Part shown: piece after piece, positions 8,808 to 37,088 of the stretch
Layout: every line of letters begins with the position of its first letter
Position numbering within the stretch: position 1 is the first letter of the stretch
Virus record (IMG/VR): IMGVR_UViG_3300047558_000127
Location: 1 to 37,745 of that record
Strand: one strand, 5' to 3'
Source of the DNA: a virus
DNA length: 37,745 bases
Made by a program: the position numbers and the translations under genes
Notes under the pieces: generated by a model
The model's database searches: none
The model's input: the letters and a program-made list of their open reading frames with translations, nothing else
Told to the model about the DNA's origin: nothing

Positions 8808-9327
8808 GCTAGTAGAACACCTAGATAATGTAAATAAGGTTGTTGAAAAATACCTTGCTGGTAGCGATCCAACACAGATTTCTAAAGAACTTGCTATGCC
8901 AAGGCAGACAGTTGTGGCATACATTGGTGAGTGGCGACAGATGGCTGCAGATAATGCTGCTATTCGTGCTCGTGCCAAGGAAGCTCTAGTGGGTGCAGAT
9001 ACACACTATACAAAACTAATTAGTAAAGCATATGAGGTTATTGATGAAGCAACAACAACTGCTAACCTAAATGCAAAAACCCAGGGTATCAAACTTGTAA
9101 TGGACCTTGAAAAGACACGTATTGAAATGCTACAGAAAGCAGGATTGCTAGAGAACAAAGAGCTTGCAGAAGAAATGGTTGAGATTGAAGAGAGACAGCA
9201 AGCACTTATTGAGATCCTAAAAGACATTGCTTCAGAATATCCAGAAATTCGTGATGAAATTATGCGAAGACTATCAAAGGTAAGCAAGCAAAAAGAAACA
9301 ATAGTGATTGTGAATAATAATGTTTGA
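8797..9327 (+). CDS. terS-like: Putative terminase small subunit
   Basis: 176 residues with an N-terminal helix-turn-helix (YLAGSDPTQISKELAMPRQTVVAYIGEW) followed by a long helical region (residues 75-165) rich in Glu, Lys and Leu that would oligomerise. This architecture, and the 8-base overlap with the large terminase gene downstream, fit the small terminase subunit that recognises phage DNA and regulates the motor. Sequence motifs of small subunits are weak in general, so the assignment leans on position and shape. Confidence 0.72.
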   Translation: MEDKLVEHLDNVNKVVEKYLAGSDPTQISKELAMPRQTVVAYIGEWRQMAADNAAIRARAKEALVGADTHYTKLISKAYEVIDEATTTANLNAKTQGIKLVMDLEKTRIEMLQKAGLLENKELAEEMVEIEERQQALIEILKDIASEYPEIRDEIMRRLSKVSKQKETIVIVNNNV

Positions 9328-11098
9328 TGATTTTTTAGAGGCTCTTAAGTCTGATGCATTTGCTGAGATTCCAGTAGATGCTAAGACTTTCGTGGAGGGT
9401 GAAGATTATCTAAACCAGCCACCACTATCAGAAGTCCAGTATGACATTGTGGAGGCAATGAGTCAGATCTATAAGCTAGATGATCTGATTTACCTAATGG
9501 GAGAAACTGATGGTCGAAGATACTATAAGAAATACACCAAGAACGAAGTTATTCTACAACTTGGCAAGGGGTCTGGTAAAGACTTTACCTCAACAGTTGC
9601 TTGTGCTTATATTGTATATAAGTTACTTTGTCTTAAGGATCCTGCACGTTATTTTGGTAAGCCTAGTGGCGATGCCATTGACATCATTAACGTCGCTATT
9701 AACGCACAGCAGGCGAAGAACGTATTCTTTAAAGGCTTTAAAACTAAGATTGAAAAATCGGCTTGGTTCGCTGGAAAATATAATCCAAAAGCAGAATCCA
9801 TCGAATTTGATAAGTCTATCACAGTATACTCAGGTCACTCAGAAAGAGAGTCGCATGAGGGTCTCAACCTTATCCTTGCTGTTCTTGACGAGATTTCTGG
9901 TTTTGCTACAGAAATTGGAACTGGTAATGATCAAGGTAAGACTGCTGATAACATCTACAAGGCATTCCGTGCTTCTGTAGACTCTCGTTTCCCAGACTTA
10001 GGAAAGGTAGCACTTCTATCCTTCCCTCGTTTTCCTGGCGACTTTATCTCAACAAGATATGATGCAGTTATTGCAGAAAAAGAAACGGTACATAAGACTC
10101 ATAAGTTTATTATGAATGAAGATCTTCCAGAAGATGCTGAAGGAAACTCTCTAGAGATTGAATGGGATGAGGATACAATTGTTTCTTACAAGTATCCAGG
10201 AATGTTTGCACTCAAGCGTCCTACATGGGTTGTAAACCCTACACGTAAGATTGATGACTTTAAGCTTGCGTTCTTTACTGATATTGGAGATGCTATGCAA
10301 CGTTTTGCATGTGTTCCAACATTCTCGTCAGATGCATTCTTTAAGCAACGTGATAAGGTTCGTGCAGCAATGACAATTAGGAATCCTCTAGATACCTTTA
10401 GAAGATTTGAACCAAACTTTGAGCCAGATCCAGATAAGATTTATTATGTACATGCTGACCTTGCACAGCGTCATGACAAGTGTGCTGTAGCAATTGCTCA
10501 CGTAGAAAAATGGGTAAATGTTCAGGTAGTTAAAGATTACGAACAGATTTCTCCAATTGTAGTAGTAGATGCAGTAGCATGGTGGGAGCCAAAGATTGAA
10601 GGCCCCGTAGATCTATCTGAGGTAAAACAATGGATTCAAAATTTGCGTAGAGTTGGATTTAACATTGGACTTGTCTCGTTTGACCGCTGGCAGTCATTTG
10701 ATATTCAGAATGAGCTAAAAGCTGTTGGAATGAGAACTGATACTGTTTCTGTTGGTAAGAAACATTATGAAGATATGGCCATGCTAGTCTATGAGGATAG
10801 AGTAGCTATGCCAGCAATTGAGTTACTGTTTGAAGAACTTACAGAGCTTAAGATTACTAAGAATGGTAAGAATGTAGACCACCCACGTAAGCTGTCTAAA
10901 GACTTAGCTGACGCTGTCTGTGGTTCCATTTTTGGTGCCATAAGTCACACACCAAGAGACCTGAACCTTGAAGTAGAGATTCATACTTTTAGGGATAGAC
11001 CTAAAAATCAGGTTGACAAACAAAAAGATAGTGTGATAGAATATAAACCTATGCCAAAAGAGGTAAAAGACTACTTGGATAGGTTCAATTTAATATAA
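9320..11098 (+). CDS. terL: Terminase large subunit
   Basis: 592 residues, the packaging motor ATPase-nuclease. The ATPase shows Walker A at residues 82-87 (GKGSGK) and Walker B ending Asp190-Glu191 (LILAVLDEISG), with a coupling-motif-like LLSFPRFPG later. The nuclease half begins with a strand carrying Asp380 (YYVHADLAQRHDKCAVAI), an RNase-H-like first metal ligand, and continues through VSFDRWQS and a late acidic motif (KDLADAVCGSIF). The order and length are typical. The last 90 bases contain a predicted promoter for the secreted protein that follows. Confidence 0.92.
   Translation: MFDDFLEALKSDAFAEIPVDAKTFVEGEDYLNQPPLSEVQYDIVEAMSQIYKLDDLIYLMGETDGRRYYKKYTKNEVILQLGKGSGKDFTSTVACAYIVYKLLCLKDPARYFGKPSGDAIDIINVAINAQQAKNVFFKGFKTKIEKSAWFAGKYNPKAESIEFDKSITVYSGHSERESHEGLNLILAVLDEISGFATEIGTGNDQGKTADNIYKAFRASVDSRFPDLGKVALLSFPRFPGDFISTRYDAVIAEKETVHKTHKFIMNEDLPEDAEGNSLEIEWDEDTIVSYKYPGMFALKRPTWVVNPTRKIDDFKLAFFTDIGDAMQRFACVPTFSSDAFFKQRDKVRAAMTIRNPLDTFRRFEPNFEPDPDKIYYVHADLAQRHDKCAVAIAHVEKWVNVQVVKDYEQISPIVVVDAVAWWEPKIEGPVDLSEVKQWIQNLRRVGFNIGLVSFDRWQSFDIQNELKAVGMRTDTVSVGKKHYEDMAMLVYEDRVAMPAIELLFEELTELKITKNGKNVDHPRKLSKDLADAVCGSIFGAISHTPRDLNLEVEIHTFRDRPKNQVDKQKDSVIEYKPMPKEVKDYLDRFNLI
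11013..11042 (+). promoter_or_regulatory. Promoter for secreted protein gene
   Basis: TTGACA (11013-11018), 18-base spacer, and extended -10 TGA-TAGAAT (11034-11042), inside the end of the terminase gene. A start near 11049 would give a leader of about 80 bases to ATG 11128. A second -10-like TATAAT lies at 11094-11099 without a clear -35. Confidence 0.55.
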
Positions 11099-18251: not shown

Positions 18252-18415
18252 AGTTCTTCAAGGATATGATTGACCAGCTTTGGACACTCCTAGGAATGTT
18301 CATTGCATGGGTCGTTCTAGATGGAAGTGCAAAGACAGTTGTTGGGTATGCGATAGTAGGAACCATGTTTGCATGGGTTGTTACCTACCCTATAAGAAAC
18401 AGAGAGGAAGACTAA
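18245..18415 (+). CDS. Small membrane protein
   Basis: 56 residues. The start overlaps the preceding stop (ATGGTAA) and the stop overlaps the next ATG (TAATG). It carries two hydrophobic stretches, LWTLLGMFIAWVVLDG and VVGYAIVGTMFAWVVTY, separated by GSAK, with charged ends (RNREED). Two short membrane helices fit a holin-like or membrane accessory role, especially as the following gene is also holin-like. It is below usual ORF cut-offs but well supported by coupling on both sides. Confidence 0.7.
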   Translation: MVKFFKDMIDQLWTLLGMFIAWVVLDGSAKTVVGYAIVGTMFAWVVTYPIRNREED

Positions 18416-18705
18416 TGGCAACTAAGAAAGAACCAGGAACAGTTGCAGCAAAACCCCAGGGCCAAAAGGCTCTGTCTAACGTCCTCATGAGAATCGTTGC
18501 AGTATTTGCAGCAAACGGTCTTGGAGTACTTGGTGCAGGAGCTGTTGTAGGAATTGATACCCTACAGGCAGTATTTCTTGCAGGATTGCTGGGTGTAGCC
18601 ACAGTCGTAGAGAAGCTTGCAAGAGCCTTTCTTGATGACGGCAAGCTTACAATTGCTGAAATCAATGAAGCATTCGCTACAGTCGATAAAAAACAAGTTA
18701 AATAA
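18415..18705 (+). CDS. Holin-like membrane protein
   Basis: 96 residues from ATG 18415, with GAGGAAG upstream; the longer frame from 18280 lies inside the previous gene. After a polar N-terminus (KKEPGTVAAKPQGQK) come two hydrophobic segments, about residues 27-48 (IVAVFAANGLGVLGAGAVVG) and 52-66 (TLQAVFLAGLLGVATVV). A charged tail follows (EKLARAFLDDGKLTIAEIN). This is the layout of many small phage holins. The endolysin gene is 10 kb away, so the call is by topology only. Confidence 0.6.
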   Translation: MATKKEPGTVAAKPQGQKALSNVLMRIVAVFAANGLGVLGAGAVVGIDTLQAVFLAGLLGVATVVEKLARAFLDDGKLTIAEINEAFATVDKKQVK

Positions 18706-18723: not shown

Positions 18724-18752
18724 TTGACAGGGTCCCCTAGTTCATGTATACT
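18724..18752 (+). promoter_or_regulatory. Consensus promoter for the proteasome-like gene
   Basis: TTGACA (18724-18729), exactly 17 bases, TATACT (18747-18752). Start expected near 18759, leaving a 26-base leader with AGGGGA (18773-18778) six bases before ATG 18785. Confidence 0.8.
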
Positions 18753-18783
18753 TATTACAAGTATCTAGAGCTAGGGGATTTTT
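18733..18783 (+). terminator. Terminator-like hairpin overlapping the promoter
   Basis: TCCCCTAG (18733-18740) pairs with CTAGGGGA (18771-18778), with an inner stem ATACTT/AAGTAT (18748-18753, 18759-18764), followed by TTTTT (18779-18783). Only transcripts entering from upstream contain the left arm; transcripts started at the embedded promoter do not. Confidence 0.6.
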
Positions 18784-18784
18784 C

Positions 18785-19309
18785 ATGACTTGTATAGTTG
18801 CAGCACGTCAAGATGGAAAGATTTATATGGCAGGTGACCGTGGGGCATCTGAAAGTAATCTAATCATGTCCTTAACCAGTCCAAAAGTTTGGAAGCATGG
18901 AGAATATATTTTTGGATATTGTGGTTCTATGGATGGCGATAGAATGAAGTATAATTTTAAACCACCCACTCCAAAAGGTGATGATTTAGATAAGTTTATG
19001 TATACAGACTTTCTGATTGCTCTACGTGTATTTTATGAAAATTGGTGGGTAGATGTTTCTAATGATTCAGATTTTGGATTGTTGGTTGGTATTCGTGGAA
19101 AGATATACGAACACAATGCTGTAGATATGTCTTTAAACCAATATATGCACGACTATGTTGCAATGGGTTCTGGTTCAGAATATGCATATGGATCAATGCA
19201 TTCTACTGAGGGTTTAAAAGATACTCGCAAGCGTGTCATGAAGGCAGTTGGAGCAGCAATAAAATTTTCAACTTCTTGCCAAGGTCCAGTTGACATTATC
19301 AGCAGTTAG
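18785..19309 (+). CDS. Proteasome-beta/HslV-like N-terminal threonine hydrolase
   Basis: 174 residues of the Ntn-hydrolase (20S proteasome beta/HslV) family, cytoplasmic peptidases that are normally ring-forming. The protein begins Met-Thr, so removal of Met exposes the nucleophile Thr1 with no propeptide. Counting from it, Asp17 (MAGDRG) and Lys33 (TSPKVW) fall at the exact positions of the proteasome catalytic triad. The S2-type strand IFGYCGSMDGDRM and later GMGSGSEYAYGSM-like turn (read as AMGSGSEYAYGSM) match the family Gly-rich region that precedes helix 3. It has its own strong promoter. No HslU- or Mpa-like ATPase is in the window, so it may work alone, in a homo-ring, or with host factors. 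Confidence 0.85.
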   Translation: MTCIVAARQDGKIYMAGDRGASESNLIMSLTSPKVWKHGEYIFGYCGSMDGDRMKYNFKPPTPKGDDLDKFMYTDFLIALRVFYENWWVDVSNDSDFGLLVGIRGKIYEHNAVDMSLNQYMHDYVAMGSGSEYAYGSMHSTEGLKDTRKRVMKAVGAAIKFSTSCQGPVDIISS

Positions 19310-19318
19310 TGGTATTAT
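19290..19318 (+). promoter_or_regulatory. Leaderless promoter for small acidic gene
   Basis: TTGACA (19290-19295), 17-base spacer, TGG-TATTAT (-10 at 19313-19318), then exactly 6 bases to ATG 19325. It is the most complete example of the leaderless arrangement in the window. Confidence 0.78.
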
Positions 19319-19324
19319 ATTTAT

Positions 19325-19504
19325 ATGACAGATAAAAATTTTGACGAGCTGTGGGATTGGCTACAGCATGGTATTGATAAGGGATGGGTCACTGAACCAT
19401 TCTGCTACACCCATGAGGGTGATCCACACATGACAGAAGAAGAAGAGCAAGAGTGGGAAGACGGAGGAGATCCGTGTTGTCCAGTAATTAAACTAAAGCA
19501 ATAA
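19325..19504 (+). CDS. Small acidic Cys-containing protein
   Basis: 59 residues with 20% or more acidic residues: FDELWDWLQHGIDKGW, then EPFCYTHEGDP, MTEEEEQEWEDGGDPCC and a short hydrophobic end (PVIKLK). Three cysteines and two histidines could bind a metal. The pattern GIDKGW ... C-x-TH-x-G-x-P ... EEEE ... GGDPC looks like a small conserved protein common in actinobacterial phages; function is unknown. It is too short for common cut-offs but has a full consensus promoter ending 6 bases before its ATG, and lies between two protease genes. Confidence 0.75.
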   Translation: MTDKNFDELWDWLQHGIDKGWVTEPFCYTHEGDPHMTEEEEQEWEDGGDPCCPVIKLKQ

Positions 19505-19516
19505 AAGGAAAAGGGT

Positions 19517-20320
19517 ATGAAGAAGATTATTTATGCAGCACTTGCTGCTACAGTTTCACTAACCACCATTACAGCACCTGCCTATGCAGATACAAAGTCT
19601 CTAGTCATTATTGATAGTTATTTTAATTTATCTAAGCTTGGTCCAAATACCACACAGGTATGTATCGTAGCTGATAAGTGTATCAACACTGCAAAGCCAT
19701 CAAAGAATGTCTCTGATCCAGCAAATCACGGTACAGCAATGGCTGAATTGGCTCTAAAGCAAAATCCAGCAATTAATCTAATTGTAATTCGTGCATCCGC
19801 TGTAAATGCATCTGGTTCTGTTTATGGAGTAACTGGAAATACTTTGCTTGATGCTTTAAAGTGGGTTCAGAATAATGCATCTATAGTTGGTGCAATATCA
19901 TTCTCATACAGTCTAAGTGGAAATATGACAAAGATTGGTGACTGTTCGCTATCATCGTTTGGCCTAACAAATGTTTCAGTTGTTGATCCACAGATTCGTA
20001 CAAGCATTACAAGTCTAAAGAGTGCTGGCATTCCTTTCTTTGCTGCTACTGGAAATAATGGCCCAACGAAGCCAGTATCTTATCCAGCATGCATCTCCGA
20101 CACAGTATCTGTTGGATCTGGTGTTGGTGGTTCGTATATCCCATCATCAAGTCGTGATATCAACACTGATGTGATTGGTTCGCTACCTGCAAATGTATTT
20201 TCATATAAGTCTAACATCTTTGGTATAATTCCTCAGACAACATCATCTGCAACTTCTTCAGTTGCTGCAAAATATTTGTCAGAAAAACTTGACAAAGGTG
20301 TTGTCTTTGTGCTACCATAG
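19517..20320 (+). CDS. Secreted subtilisin-like serine protease
   Basis: 267 residues with a signal peptide (MKKIIYAALAATVSLTTITA, cleavage near AYA-DT) and a compact S8 subtilase domain. The catalytic set is readable: Asp33 (VIIDSYF), His71 (NHGTAMAEL), oxyanion Asn180 (AATGNNG) and Ser243 (TTSSATSSVAA). The usual GTS triplet is TTS here, an atypical active-site block. There is no clear propeptide. It would act outside the cell or in the envelope. AAAAGGAAAAGGG precedes the ATG. Possible roles: maturation of virion or surface proteins, or degradation of host surface layer during release. Confidence 0.78.
   Translation: MKKIIYAALAATVSLTTITAPAYADTKSLVIIDSYFNLSKLGPNTTQVCIVADKCINTAKPSKNVSDPANHGTAMAELALKQNPAINLIVIRASAVNASGSVYGVTGNTLLDALKWVQNNASIVGAISFSYSLSGNMTKIGDCSLSSFGLTNVSVVDPQIRTSITSLKSAGIPFFAATGNNGPTKPVSYPACISDTVSVGSGVGGSYIPSSSRDINTDVIGSLPANVFSYKSNIFGIIPQTTSSATSSVAAKYLSEKLDKGVVFVLP
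20289..20318 (+). promoter_or_regulatory. Promoter of the tRNA cluster
   Basis: TTGACA (20289-20294), 18-base spacer, extended -10 TGC-TACCAT (20310-20318), in the last codons of the subtilase gene. The spacer holds an inverted repeat ACAAAG/CTTTGT (20292-20297, 20305-20310) that could be an operator. Start expected near 20325. Confidence 0.65.
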
Positions 20321-20439: not shown

Positions 20440-20511
20440 TGCCCCTTAGCTCAATGGCAGAGCAGAGAGCTGTTAACTCTAAGGTTGTTGGTTCGAGTCC
20501 AGCAGGGGCAG
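20440..20511 (+). tRNA. tRNA-Asn (GTT)
   Basis: Cloverleaf by hand: acceptor TGCCCCT/AGGGGCA, D-arm GCTC/GAGC, anticodon loop CTGTTAA, T-arm GTTGG-TTCGAGT-CCAGC, discriminator G at 20511. The 27-43 pair is G-A. CCA is not encoded. Confidence 0.93.
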
Positions 20512-20522
20512 CTAATGGTTCC

Positions 20523-20558
20523 GTTTGCACCACTCCTGGGTATGGGATAAAAGCAAAC
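20523..20558 (+). other. Hairpin between tRNA-Asn and tRNA-Gly
   Basis: GTTTGC (20523-20528) pairs with GCAAAC (20553-20558) around a 24-base loop. It fills the 52-base spacer; a processing signal is likely. Confidence 0.4.
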
Positions 20559-20563
20559 AAAAT

Positions 20564-20634
20564 GCGTGTGTTGCATAATGGTAGTGCCTCTGCCTTCCAA
20601 GCAGACGGTGGGAGTTCGATTCTCCCTACACGCT
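20564..20634 (+). tRNA. tRNA-Gly (TCC)
   Basis: Acceptor GCGTGTG/TACACGC (one G-T), D-arm GCAT/GTGC, anticodon stem TCTGC/GCAGA with loop CTTCCAA, T-arm GGGAG-TTCGATT-CTCCC, discriminator T. Reads GGA codons, which are frequent in these genes. Confidence 0.94.
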
Positions 20635-20827
20635 CAAACAGATTCCTGACGAGGGGTCTGGGATATGGCTGAACGAATCTCTTTGCCAGCAAGGAGAGAG
20701 TAAGGCACAGATCTGAGATTAGCGTCTCTGTTCTTAGCGGAACAAAGGTCTGGTCGGATGAAAGCGGTACTTAATGGTATTGTTGGCTTATCCGTGGTGG
20801 TAAAAGGCAATCCACCTATCCACATTT
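20635..20827 (+). ncRNA. Long structured spacer, tRNA-Gly to tRNA-Asp
   Basis: 193 bases without a plausible ORF. Hairpins seen include TCTCTTTGC/GCAAGGAGA (one T-G pair, about 20676-20697), GTTC/GAAC around TTAGCG, and GGTGG/CCACC near 20795-20818. No T-arm consensus, so not a tRNA. Precursor spacer or an independent RNA. Confidence 0.4.
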
Positions 20828-20901
20828 GGTCTGTTAGCTCAGTTGGTTAGAGCACCACCCTGTCACGGTGGGGGTCGTGGGTTCAAGTCCCATACAGATC
20901 G
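20828..20901 (+). tRNA. tRNA-Asp (GTC)
   Basis: Acceptor GGTCTGT/ACAGATC, D-arm GCTC/GAGC, anticodon stem CCACC/GGTGG with loop CTGTCAC, T-arm GTGGG-TTCAAGT-CCCAT, discriminator G. Confidence 0.95.
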
Positions 20902-20906
20902 CTCAA

Positions 20907-20931
20907 AGTATAAGTCTGAACAACTTATACT
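20907..20931 (+). other. Perfect hairpin after tRNA-Asp
   Basis: Nine-base-pair perfect stem AGTATAAGT/ACTTATACT with a 7-base loop, six bases after tRNA-Asp. No T-run follows. Likely a processing or barrier structure. Confidence 0.55.
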
Positions 20932-20938
20932 AAGATAG

Positions 20939-21026
20939 GTGTATCCGAAAATTACGCTGTCCCAGCGGTAGAGTGAAAGTGTTCAGACTCATGGACTCTA
21001 TGACTAATGCGAGGACTAGGATATAC
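20939..21026 (+). ncRNA. Closed 88-base foldable segment, tRNA-sized
   Basis: GTGTATCC (20939-20946) pairs with GGATATAC (21019-21026) over 8 bp, enclosing a hairpin CGCTG-TCC-CAGCG and a D-arm-like AGCGGTAGAG. It has the size of a tRNA but no T-arm. Degenerate tRNA or a separate small RNA. Confidence 0.35.
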
Positions 21027-21069
21027 AGCCAATGGTATGCGAATATAAAACGGTGCACGATTGGCAAAT

Positions 21070-21141
21070 GCCTTCTTAGCTCAGTGGTAGAGCAACGCAC
21101 TTGTAATGCGTAGGTCGTCAGTTCAATCCTGACAGAAGGCT
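21070..21141 (+). tRNA. tRNA-Thr (TGT)
   Basis: Acceptor GCCTTCT/AGAAGGC, D-arm GCTC/GAGC, anticodon stem ACGCA/TGCGT with loop CTTGTAA, T-arm GTCAG-TTCAATC-CTGAC, discriminator T. Only four bases separate it from tRNA-Glu. Confidence 0.95.
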
Positions 21142-21145
21142 CTCT

Positions 21146-21217
21146 GGCCCCATCGTCCATGGGTTAGGATTCCAGGCTTTCATCTTGGAGAACAGGGTTC
21201 GAATCCCTGTGGGGCTG
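21146..21217 (+). tRNA. tRNA-Glu (TTC)
   Basis: Acceptor GGCCCCA/TGGGGCT (G-T first pair), family-typical ATCGTC D-arm start, anticodon stem CCAGG/CTTGG with loop CTTTCAT, T-arm CAGGG-TTCGAAT-CCCTG, discriminator G. Confidence 0.93.
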
Positions 21218-21218
21218 C

Positions 21219-29640: not shown

Positions 29641-29669
29641 TTGACAACTGCTGCATTGGGTGGTATACT
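29641..29669 (+). promoter_or_regulatory. Consensus promoter downstream of endolysin
   Basis: TTGACA (29641-29646), 17-base spacer, TGG-TATACT (-10 at 29664-29669). The start near 29677 is followed at once by a hairpin TGCCAC/GTGGCA (29679-29695), so the mRNA would begin with a 5' stem-loop, then AGGAGG and ATG 29714. Confidence 0.78.
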
Positions 29670-29713
29670 AATATTGTATGCCACCCTTTGTGGCACTTAT
29701 CTTAGGAGGAAGT

Positions 29714-29914
29714 ATGGAATCCAAGAAGAGAAGTCTTGTTAAGACACTATCATGGCACACTGTTCATATAGTAATGGTTGGCCTTGTTGCATTTATTGTA
29801 ACTAAACGCCTAGATCTTGCAGCTATTATTGCATCTGCAGAACTTGTATGGGAGTCAGTCCTATATTTTGCACATGAACGTGCATGGGCTAAGTGGGGAA
29901 AGCATCTACACTAA
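29714..29914 (+). CDS. DUF2061-like small membrane protein
   Basis: 66 residues from ATG 29714 (AGGAGG at 29704-29709). An ATG at 29678 would be leaderless from the upstream promoter but adds a poorly supported extension. Two hydrophobic helices (TVHIVMVGLVAFIVTK and LAAIIASAELVWESVLYF) and the signatures SLVKTLSWH and YFAHERAWAKWG match the DUF2061 membrane family. Function of the family is unknown. Its closeness to the endolysin makes a lysis accessory or holin-like role possible. Confidence 0.78.
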   Translation: MESKKRSLVKTLSWHTVHIVMVGLVAFIVTKRLDLAAIIASAELVWESVLYFAHERAWAKWGKHLH

Positions 29915-34277: not shown

Positions 34278-34565
34278 ATGACTAACCATAAATACAAATG
34301 GCAAGATGATGCTAGATGTAAAGGTTTTGATACAAATCTATTCTTTGATACATACGAAGAAGATCTAGAAATTCGTGAAGATGTTGATACTCTTTGCTCT
34401 ATGTGTCCTGTAGCAAGAATTTGTTTTGCTACTGGAGTATCGCAAAAAGGCTGGGGAGTTCATGGAGGAATCTACATTGAAGATGGAGAAATCTCTAGAG
34501 AATTTAATAGACATAAGACAAAGGCCAAATGGGCTGAGACATGGAAGTATCTGACGGTGGACTAA
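34278..34565 (+). CDS. whiB-like: WhiB-family Fe-S transcription factor
   Basis: 95 residues. The four cluster-binding cysteines are Cys14 (ARCKG), Cys40, Cys43 and Cys49 (CSMCPVARIC), with the C-x2-C-x5-C spacing of Wbl proteins. The G-W-G-turn KGWGVHGGIY and a basic C-terminal segment (REFNRHKTKAKW) follow. Wbl proteins bind sigma factor region 4 and DNA and occur only in Actinobacteria and their phages, so this is strong host evidence. Phage copies can repress host whiB functions or redirect host transcription. Confidence 0.95.
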   Translation: MTNHKYKWQDDARCKGFDTNLFFDTYEEDLEIREDVDTLCSMCPVARICFATGVSQKGWGVHGGIYIEDGEISREFNRHKTKAKWAETWKYLTVD

Positions 34566-36701: not shown

Positions 36702-37088
36702 ATGGTTATTAACACACCATTCGCAGGACTTGGTCTAGATATTGACAAGTTCTTTGCACTAAACACAACTACCCCAGCATACCCACCATACAACATTGTT
36801 AAAATTGATGATGATAAGGTTGTACTTGAATTTGCGGTTGCTGGATTTAAAAAGGACGATATCAGTATTGTAACTGAAAAAAATGTCCTATCAATTAAGG
36901 GTGAAAAGTCATCAGATGAACGTACTTATCTCCACAAGGGGATTGCAGCACGTAAGTTTGCACGATCATTCACACTACCAGAATATTTTGAGGTAGAATC
37001 GGCAGGGTATGAGGATGGTATCCTCTATATTGATTTGATCCGCAATATCCCAGAAGAAAAGAAACCAAAGCAGATTAGTATTAACTAA
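36702..37088 (+). CDS. hsp20: Hsp20/alpha-crystallin small heat-shock protein
   Basis: 128 residues. The alpha-crystallin domain runs from about residue 24 to 115: YPPYNIVKIDDDKVVLEFAV, FKKDDISIVTEKNVLSIKGE, RKFARSFTLPEYFEVESAGYEDGILYIDLIR. The usual C-terminal Ile-x-Ile tail motif is present as ISIN. Phage Hsp20 proteins occur in aquatic phages and often sit near virion genes, where they may aid assembly. AGGAG lies before ATG. It has its own promoter and a 49-base leader. Confidence 0.93.
   Translation: MVINTPFAGLGLDIDKFFALNTTTPAYPPYNIVKIDDDKVVLEFAVAGFKKDDISIVTEKNVLSIKGEKSSDERTYLHKGIAARKFARSFTLPEYFEVESAGYEDGILYIDLIRNIPEEKKPKQISIN

Follow-up and report, generated by a model that had tools for sequence, protein, structure and literature searches.

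A phage HslV-like Ntn hydrolase gene in an optional cassette slot behind a promoter embedded in a hairpin

Proteasome homologs of phages have been on record since 2021, without a function and without a genomic context that hints at one. The described forms, AAH and PPH, belong to group I; they are encoded without a propeptide and without an AAA+ partner, their function is not known, and no AAH was found in any actinobacterial phage (Fuchs, Alva and Lupas 2021, PMC8665760). For the control region described below, the precedent is provided by the translational hairpins of the T4 genes e, soc, 49 and I-TevI (PMC3014915).

The present study concerns a 37,745-nt stretch of DNA (the window), the whole of IMG/VR record IMGVR_UViG_3300047558_000127. 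The gene at 18785-19309 (+) encodes an HslV/proteasome-beta-like Ntn hydrolase of 174 aa, with the nucleophile Thr at codon 2 (Thr1), Asp17 and Lys33. An initial annotation, made from the sequence alone, had placed this ORF exactly, with its Met-Thr start and with D17 and K33 numbered from Thr1; it had overlooked that phages were already known to carry this family (PHROG_1040; PMC8665760).

The terminase large subunit gene (9320-11098, +; phrog_17415, 5.5e-10) was used as the anchor for placing the phage and for sampling its relatives. The terminase is closest to those of Streptomyces and Gordonia phages, with about 55% identity to the enzymes of Streptomyces phages Francob, Phredrick and Gilson (Stanwilliamsviridae), and the gene order polymerase-MazG-RecA-RuvC-terminase, compared by eye, is common to the window and Stanwilliamsviridae. 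A gene for a WhiB-like transcription factor, a marker of actinobacterial hosts (PMC10202952, PMC6802176), is located at 34278-34565 (+; PF02467, 1e-9, 39.2 bits against a cut-off of 23.6). By these sequence affinities the window phage is a WhiB-bearing relative of the Stanwilliamsviridae; the earlier reading of the DNA as that of an actinobacterial phage is borne out by the WhiB gene and the terminase affinity. The GC content of the window (38.6%) would fit low-GC freshwater actinobacteria as host. Five tRNA genes are present at 20440-21218, with a manA RNA motif among them (20642-20826, 75.8 bits).

Fold, family and catalytic residues of the phage protein

The window protein was compared with family profiles and solved structures. 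It scored just above the gathering cut-off of PF00227 (23.1 against 22.4 bits) and matched PHROG_1040, 'peptidase HslV family', at 1.2e-21. A family profile built from 79 relatives matched the solved structures of the beta-proteobacteria proteasome homologue BPH (8e-9) and of HslV (3e-8) over the whole chain. The AlphaFold2 monomer model (pLDDT 95.5, pTM 0.90) shows the Ntn alpha-beta-beta-alpha sandwich. Its nearest solved fold is Thiobacillus BPH (Z 20.0, rmsd 2.4, 165 residues), followed by HslV (Z 19-19.6) and mycobacterial proteasome beta (Z about 18), and all these structural alignments begin at the Thr1 position. With the sandwich fold and Thr/Ser1, Asp17 and Lys33, the protein is a proteasome-like Ntn hydrolase of the PF00227 type, as the initial annotation had proposed; the resemblance greatly exceeds what would arise by chance. 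It also has the features of group I (Fuchs 2021), being a compact subunit with no insertions, propeptide or C-terminal S12/H5; in the model, helices 51-57 and 68-86 are both present, and helix 147-161 is followed by the final strand (169-173) with no long insertion. The narrower families do not include it. The scores were 21.9 bits against 157.75 for the HslV equivalog TIGR03692 and 26.1 against 191.9 for 20S beta (PrcB, TIGR03690), a family in which a cleaved propeptide is also expected, and the protein lies far under the cut-off of the archaeal beta family model.

Like PHROG_1040 and AAH/PPH, the protein is phage-borne, starts with Met-Thr, lacks a propeptide and an AAA+ partner, carries T1/D17/K33 and is a compact group I subunit. 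Unlike them, it falls in a deep separate clade carried by WhiB-bearing phages: in a tree of 92 sequences a long branch (length 3.7, support 100/100) sets the window clade apart from the rest. Compared by description only, it is compatible with the published features of AAH (PMC8665760; cluster KEGG OC.661151) and, on the same basis, differs from PPH, which has about 140 residues and lacks helix H2 (PMC8665760), in having 174 aa and H2. BPH (5ovt/5ovs/5ovu) is both the closest solved fold and the best profile match; however, it is only 22% identical to the window protein, and its gene is bacterial and chromosomal. BPH is known as a double-ring assembly with a long acidic pore loop; the phage protein was modelled here as a monomer. 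HslV (ClpQ) has the fold, size and Met-Thr start in common with the window protein but differs in that the latter is under its family cut-off and is accompanied by no HslU gene in the records searched.

Relatives are encoded by more than 541 IMG/VR stretches, and the closest annotated phage proteins among the matches listed share no more than 35% identity with the window protein. When 84,980 bacterial and archaeal genomes were scanned with window-clade patterns, no relative was found; six distant bacterial relatives occur in Pseudomonadota, Myxococcota and Planctomycetota. Distant relatives labelled as proteases are carried by Arthrobacter phages Hum25 and Pitbull, Microbacterium phage Pumpernickel and Actinomycetia phage DSL-LC01. 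The DSL-LC01 protein, whose gene adjoins a whiB gene, is about 27% identical to the window protein; the other three are 27-32% identical to that of DSL-LC01, and none is among the matches listed for the window protein. Since these relatives sit in named actinobacterial phages, a peptidase of this kind in an actinophage is not in itself new. The genome context in these phages differs from that in the window.

Conservation of the catalytic residues was determined in 174 distinct relatives, 90 of them at <80% identity. Position 1 was Thr in 172, Ser in one and beyond the contig edge in one, with the start-codon choice in relatives favouring Met-Thr/Ser/Cys; position 17 was Asp in 167 and Glu in 7, and position 33 was Lys in all 174, some of the loci having been fetched by patterns spanning D17 or K33. 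Ten named phages are free of this pattern bias because they were found by plain tblastn, and T/S1, D17 and K33 were present in 10/10. The natural Ser1 variant is found in Tenacibaculum phage pT24 (L086), and Glu17 replaces Asp17 in a few relatives (L011, L059, L068-L071). In 190 of 253 genes no other start codon exists between the upstream in-frame stop and Met-Thr, in agreement with the earlier claim that a propeptide is lacking. The dN/dS values of the peptidase gene against its nearest relatives (0.02-0.09) indicate strong purifying selection, and the gene therefore codes for an expressed, working protein. The position of the proteasome second-shell Asp166 is mostly Ser in the family of the window protein, which counts against reading it as an active enzyme, as does Glu17 in the seven relatives that carry it.

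An optional cassette slot with exchangeable peptidase genes

The left border of the slot is the gene for a holin-like membrane protein of 96 aa (18415-18705, +; phrog_443 holin, 0.0011), which also matches phrog_26427, labelled nuclease, at 5.7e-25 and is in the same place in relatives. The right border is an acidic 59-aa ORF (19325-19504, +), for which Pfam, PHROGs, NCBIfam and annotated phages gave no match. Of the 19 loci anchored on the terminase that extend 9.5 kb or more downstream, 18 had the 59-aa ORF, with or without the peptidase gene, and 8 had the peptidase gene. The ORF was considered as an operon partner, being adjacent to the peptidase gene in 115 of 159 loci; however, it is also found in 49 of 80 fetched loci that have no peptidase gene. 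It is thus a core gene and not a dedicated partner.

The content of the slot was compared in 59 non-redundant relatives. It held an HslV-like gene in 21, was empty in 20, held an M78-type zinc peptidase gene in 12 and another gene in 6 (two DUF885, four oxygenase-like), so that 35 of the 39 occupied slots carried peptidase-like genes. In empty slots, 52-147 bp separate the holin-like gene from the 59-aa ORF. The M78 slot protein has 128 aa and an HExxH motif (Peptidase_M78, 27.0 bits against a cut-off of 22). The DUF885 proteins (L373:3265-4971 and L396:3275-4915; E about 1e-115) belong to a family of unknown function in Pfam, and their peptidase nature was judged from the motif HESVPGHH. Thus, the site between the holin-like gene and the 59-aa ORF holds the peptidase gene as an optional cassette, which is exchanged there with unrelated peptidases; the initial annotation had missed both points.

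HslV-like and M78 genes were found together in no fetched locus. A profile search of 17 long records without an HslV-like gene at the slot found none elsewhere in them (the same profile recovered the gene in 6 of 7 control records), and no M78 gene was found in 22 HslV-bearing records. This mutual exclusion is partly expected, as the slot usually takes one gene, and the slot samples, drawn with the terminase and 59-aa ORF of the window itself, lean to the window's relatives; for both reasons exclusivity carries less weight than the recurrent choice of a peptidase.

A different protease gene is conserved 3' of the 59-aa ORF, whether the HslV-like cassette is present or not. The gene at 19517-20320 (+) encodes a predicted secreted subtilisin-like protease with a signal peptide (AF2 pLDDT 90; subtilisin match E 4e-11; no Pfam match), in which D33, H71, N180 and S243 are invariant in 50 aligned relatives.

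A promoter within a hairpin ahead of the slot gene

A sigma70-type promoter, TTGACA (18724-18729) and TATACT (18747-18752) with a 17-nt spacer, matches the consensus at 11/12 positions (18724-18752, +) and ends 32 nt 5' of the peptidase start codon. The number of such promoters in the region is not significant (7 found, 7.2 expected), so the case for this one rests on its conservation: a promoter of at least 10/12 was present in 35 of 42 non-redundant upstream regions of relatives, compared with about 2% of shuffles.

The same region can form a hairpin (18733-18784, +). Its 5' arm, TCCCCTAG (18733-18740), lies between the -35 and -10 boxes, and its 3' arm, CTAGGGGA (18771-18778), covers the Shine-Dalgarno sequence and is followed by TTTTTC up to the start codon. 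The RNA fold of -28 kcal/mol (z -6.3) was equalled by none of 200 shuffles. Because MAFFT alignment misplaces the arms, covariation was assessed by swapping arms between sequences. In 18 relatives the arms covary, with own arms folding at -21.8 and swapped arms at -14.0 kcal/mol; own arms were better in 20000/20000 permutations, the kinship of the 18 relatives being uncorrected. Another 17 relatives, roughly half of those whose upstream regions were sampled, keep the promoter without the hairpin. When the window was scanned, no other gene with a comparable perfect stem over the Shine-Dalgarno sequence was found. This promoter-in-hairpin layout had also gone unnoticed in the initial annotation.

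The sequence layout, the predicted fold and the arm covariation all correspond to the layout at T4 gene e. As at T4 e, soc, 49 and I-TevI, the Shine-Dalgarno sequence of long upstream transcripts would lie in a stem, and RNA from the internal promoter is predicted to be without the 5' arm. Unlike at these genes, the internal promoter is sigma70-type and not a T4 late promoter, and the stem ends in a terminator-like T-run and precedes any slot gene. In transcripts from upstream the hairpin would cover the Shine-Dalgarno sequence. RNA starting after the -10 box lacks the hairpin 5' arm, so that translation of the gene would be expected from its own transcript alone. A hairpin specific for the peptidase gene was considered and rejected: the same promoter-hairpin precedes whichever gene fills the slot after the holin-like gene and is thus a junction element. 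It probably acts on upstream RNA as both a terminator and a translational lock, and it also supplies the promoter of the cassette. The covarying hairpin with its internal promoter offers a testable case of read-through silencing in actinobacterial phages.

A second promoter-like site, TTGACA-N17-TATTAT (19290-19318, +; 11/12 consensus), overlaps the last codons of the peptidase gene and ends 6 nt 5' of the start codon of the 59-aa ORF. A site of at least 10/12 is found at the same place in 32 of 42 relatives, and the start of the 59-aa ORF is likely to be leaderless. Another TTGACA-N-TATACT lies in a strong hairpin (29641-29716; fold -30.9 kcal/mol) directly 3' of the endolysin gene; that stem holds no Shine-Dalgarno sequence.

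Possible roles of the peptidase during infection

The slot context points to an optional tool for cutting proteins in the course of infection. Because the same place in close relatives is empty or occupied by other peptidases, it seems to be peptidase activity itself that is selected. On balance we favour an active, self-assembling accessory Thr peptidase that is independent of an ATPase and is expressed from its own promoter in an optional cassette, a reading that we consider probable. Removal of Met by the host methionine aminopeptidase would expose Thr1, as the Met-Thr start, like that of HslV, suggests. The subunits would most likely form an HslV/BPH-like ring, which may work without a dedicated ATPase and, inside the infected actinobacterium, cut either a single specific target or proteins that are small or unfolded. 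A broader proposal is that the slot is dedicated to peptidases, with the Thr-Ntn enzyme, the M78 zincin and DUF885 interchanging for the same job behind the buried-promoter hairpin, and with a virus-specific, ATPase-free HslV-like ring; we regard this as tentative and on the doubtful side.

HslV and 20S rings ordinarily act together with ATPases, and the phage protein could accordingly be the proteolytic half of an ATP-dependent machine. As the phage brings no ATPase, one could be borrowed from the host, as an AAA+ unfoldase such as Mpa/ARC, ClpC/ClpX or an HslU-like protein. AAA+ genes were searched with PF07724 (AAA_2) and PF00004 (AAA) in 13 records, namely the window, 11 long relatives and DSL-LC01, some of which may be fragments. 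No AAA_2 gene, and so no HslU, was found in the 13 records; for AAA, there was no convincing match in the window and the 11 long relatives, with one match below the cut-off in one relative, and two above the cut-off in the distant DSL-LC01. The earlier observation that no ATPase gene lies nearby thus holds and extends to the 11 long relatives. Mpa/ARC ATPases dock on the alpha rings of proteasomes, and no alpha-like subunit was seen; the competition for host Mpa/ARC put forward earlier is unsupported. Furthermore, none of these homologs was found together with an AAA+ partner in Fuchs 2021, where HslV is not listed in Actinobacteria (PMC8665760). A borrowed unfoldase is, on this evidence, quite unlikely.

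Unlikely, too, is a site-specific enzyme by which a single target, for example a host regulator or defence protein, would be cut, or joined as by connectase, and so switched off. M78/ImmA-type peptidases, which replace the HslV-like protein in the slot, cleave specific regulators, and connectase is an example of a proteasome-like fold acting as a specific ligase (PMC8665760). The model, however, shows no insertion of the connectase type between strands 3 and 4, all four flanking helices are present, and the protein had no match to defence families. Maturation of virion proteins, as a prohead protease or in tail processing, had been raised in the initial annotation, and a phage protease near late-type genes (the holin-like gene, a PA14 protein) would be in keeping with it. 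As far as the tools reach, this is contradicted. The head-maturation protease of Streptomyces phage Gilson has a homolog in 11 of 13 records of the window's group tested, the exceptions being the window and one other fragment; two further matches were in M78-type or empty-slot phages. The identity as prohead protease was rejected given this separate enzyme; moreover, the peptidase gene is optional and exchanged, and it lies in an accessory region after the terminase, away from the portal and capsid genes. We therefore consider a role in virion maturation highly improbable. With the slot context in hand, the function of phage proteasome homologs becomes a matter of comparing near-isogenic phages with an empty slot, a Thr peptidase or a zinc peptidase.

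Two further observations concern gene content. An HSP20 small heat-shock gene is present at 36702-37088 (+; 72 bits), and in 58 of 159 loci the peptidase gene has an HSP20 homolog no more than 3 kb away. In Aeromonas phage 2L372X (L090), two adjoining genes are both labelled 'peptidase HslV family' and may encode a two-subunit ring.
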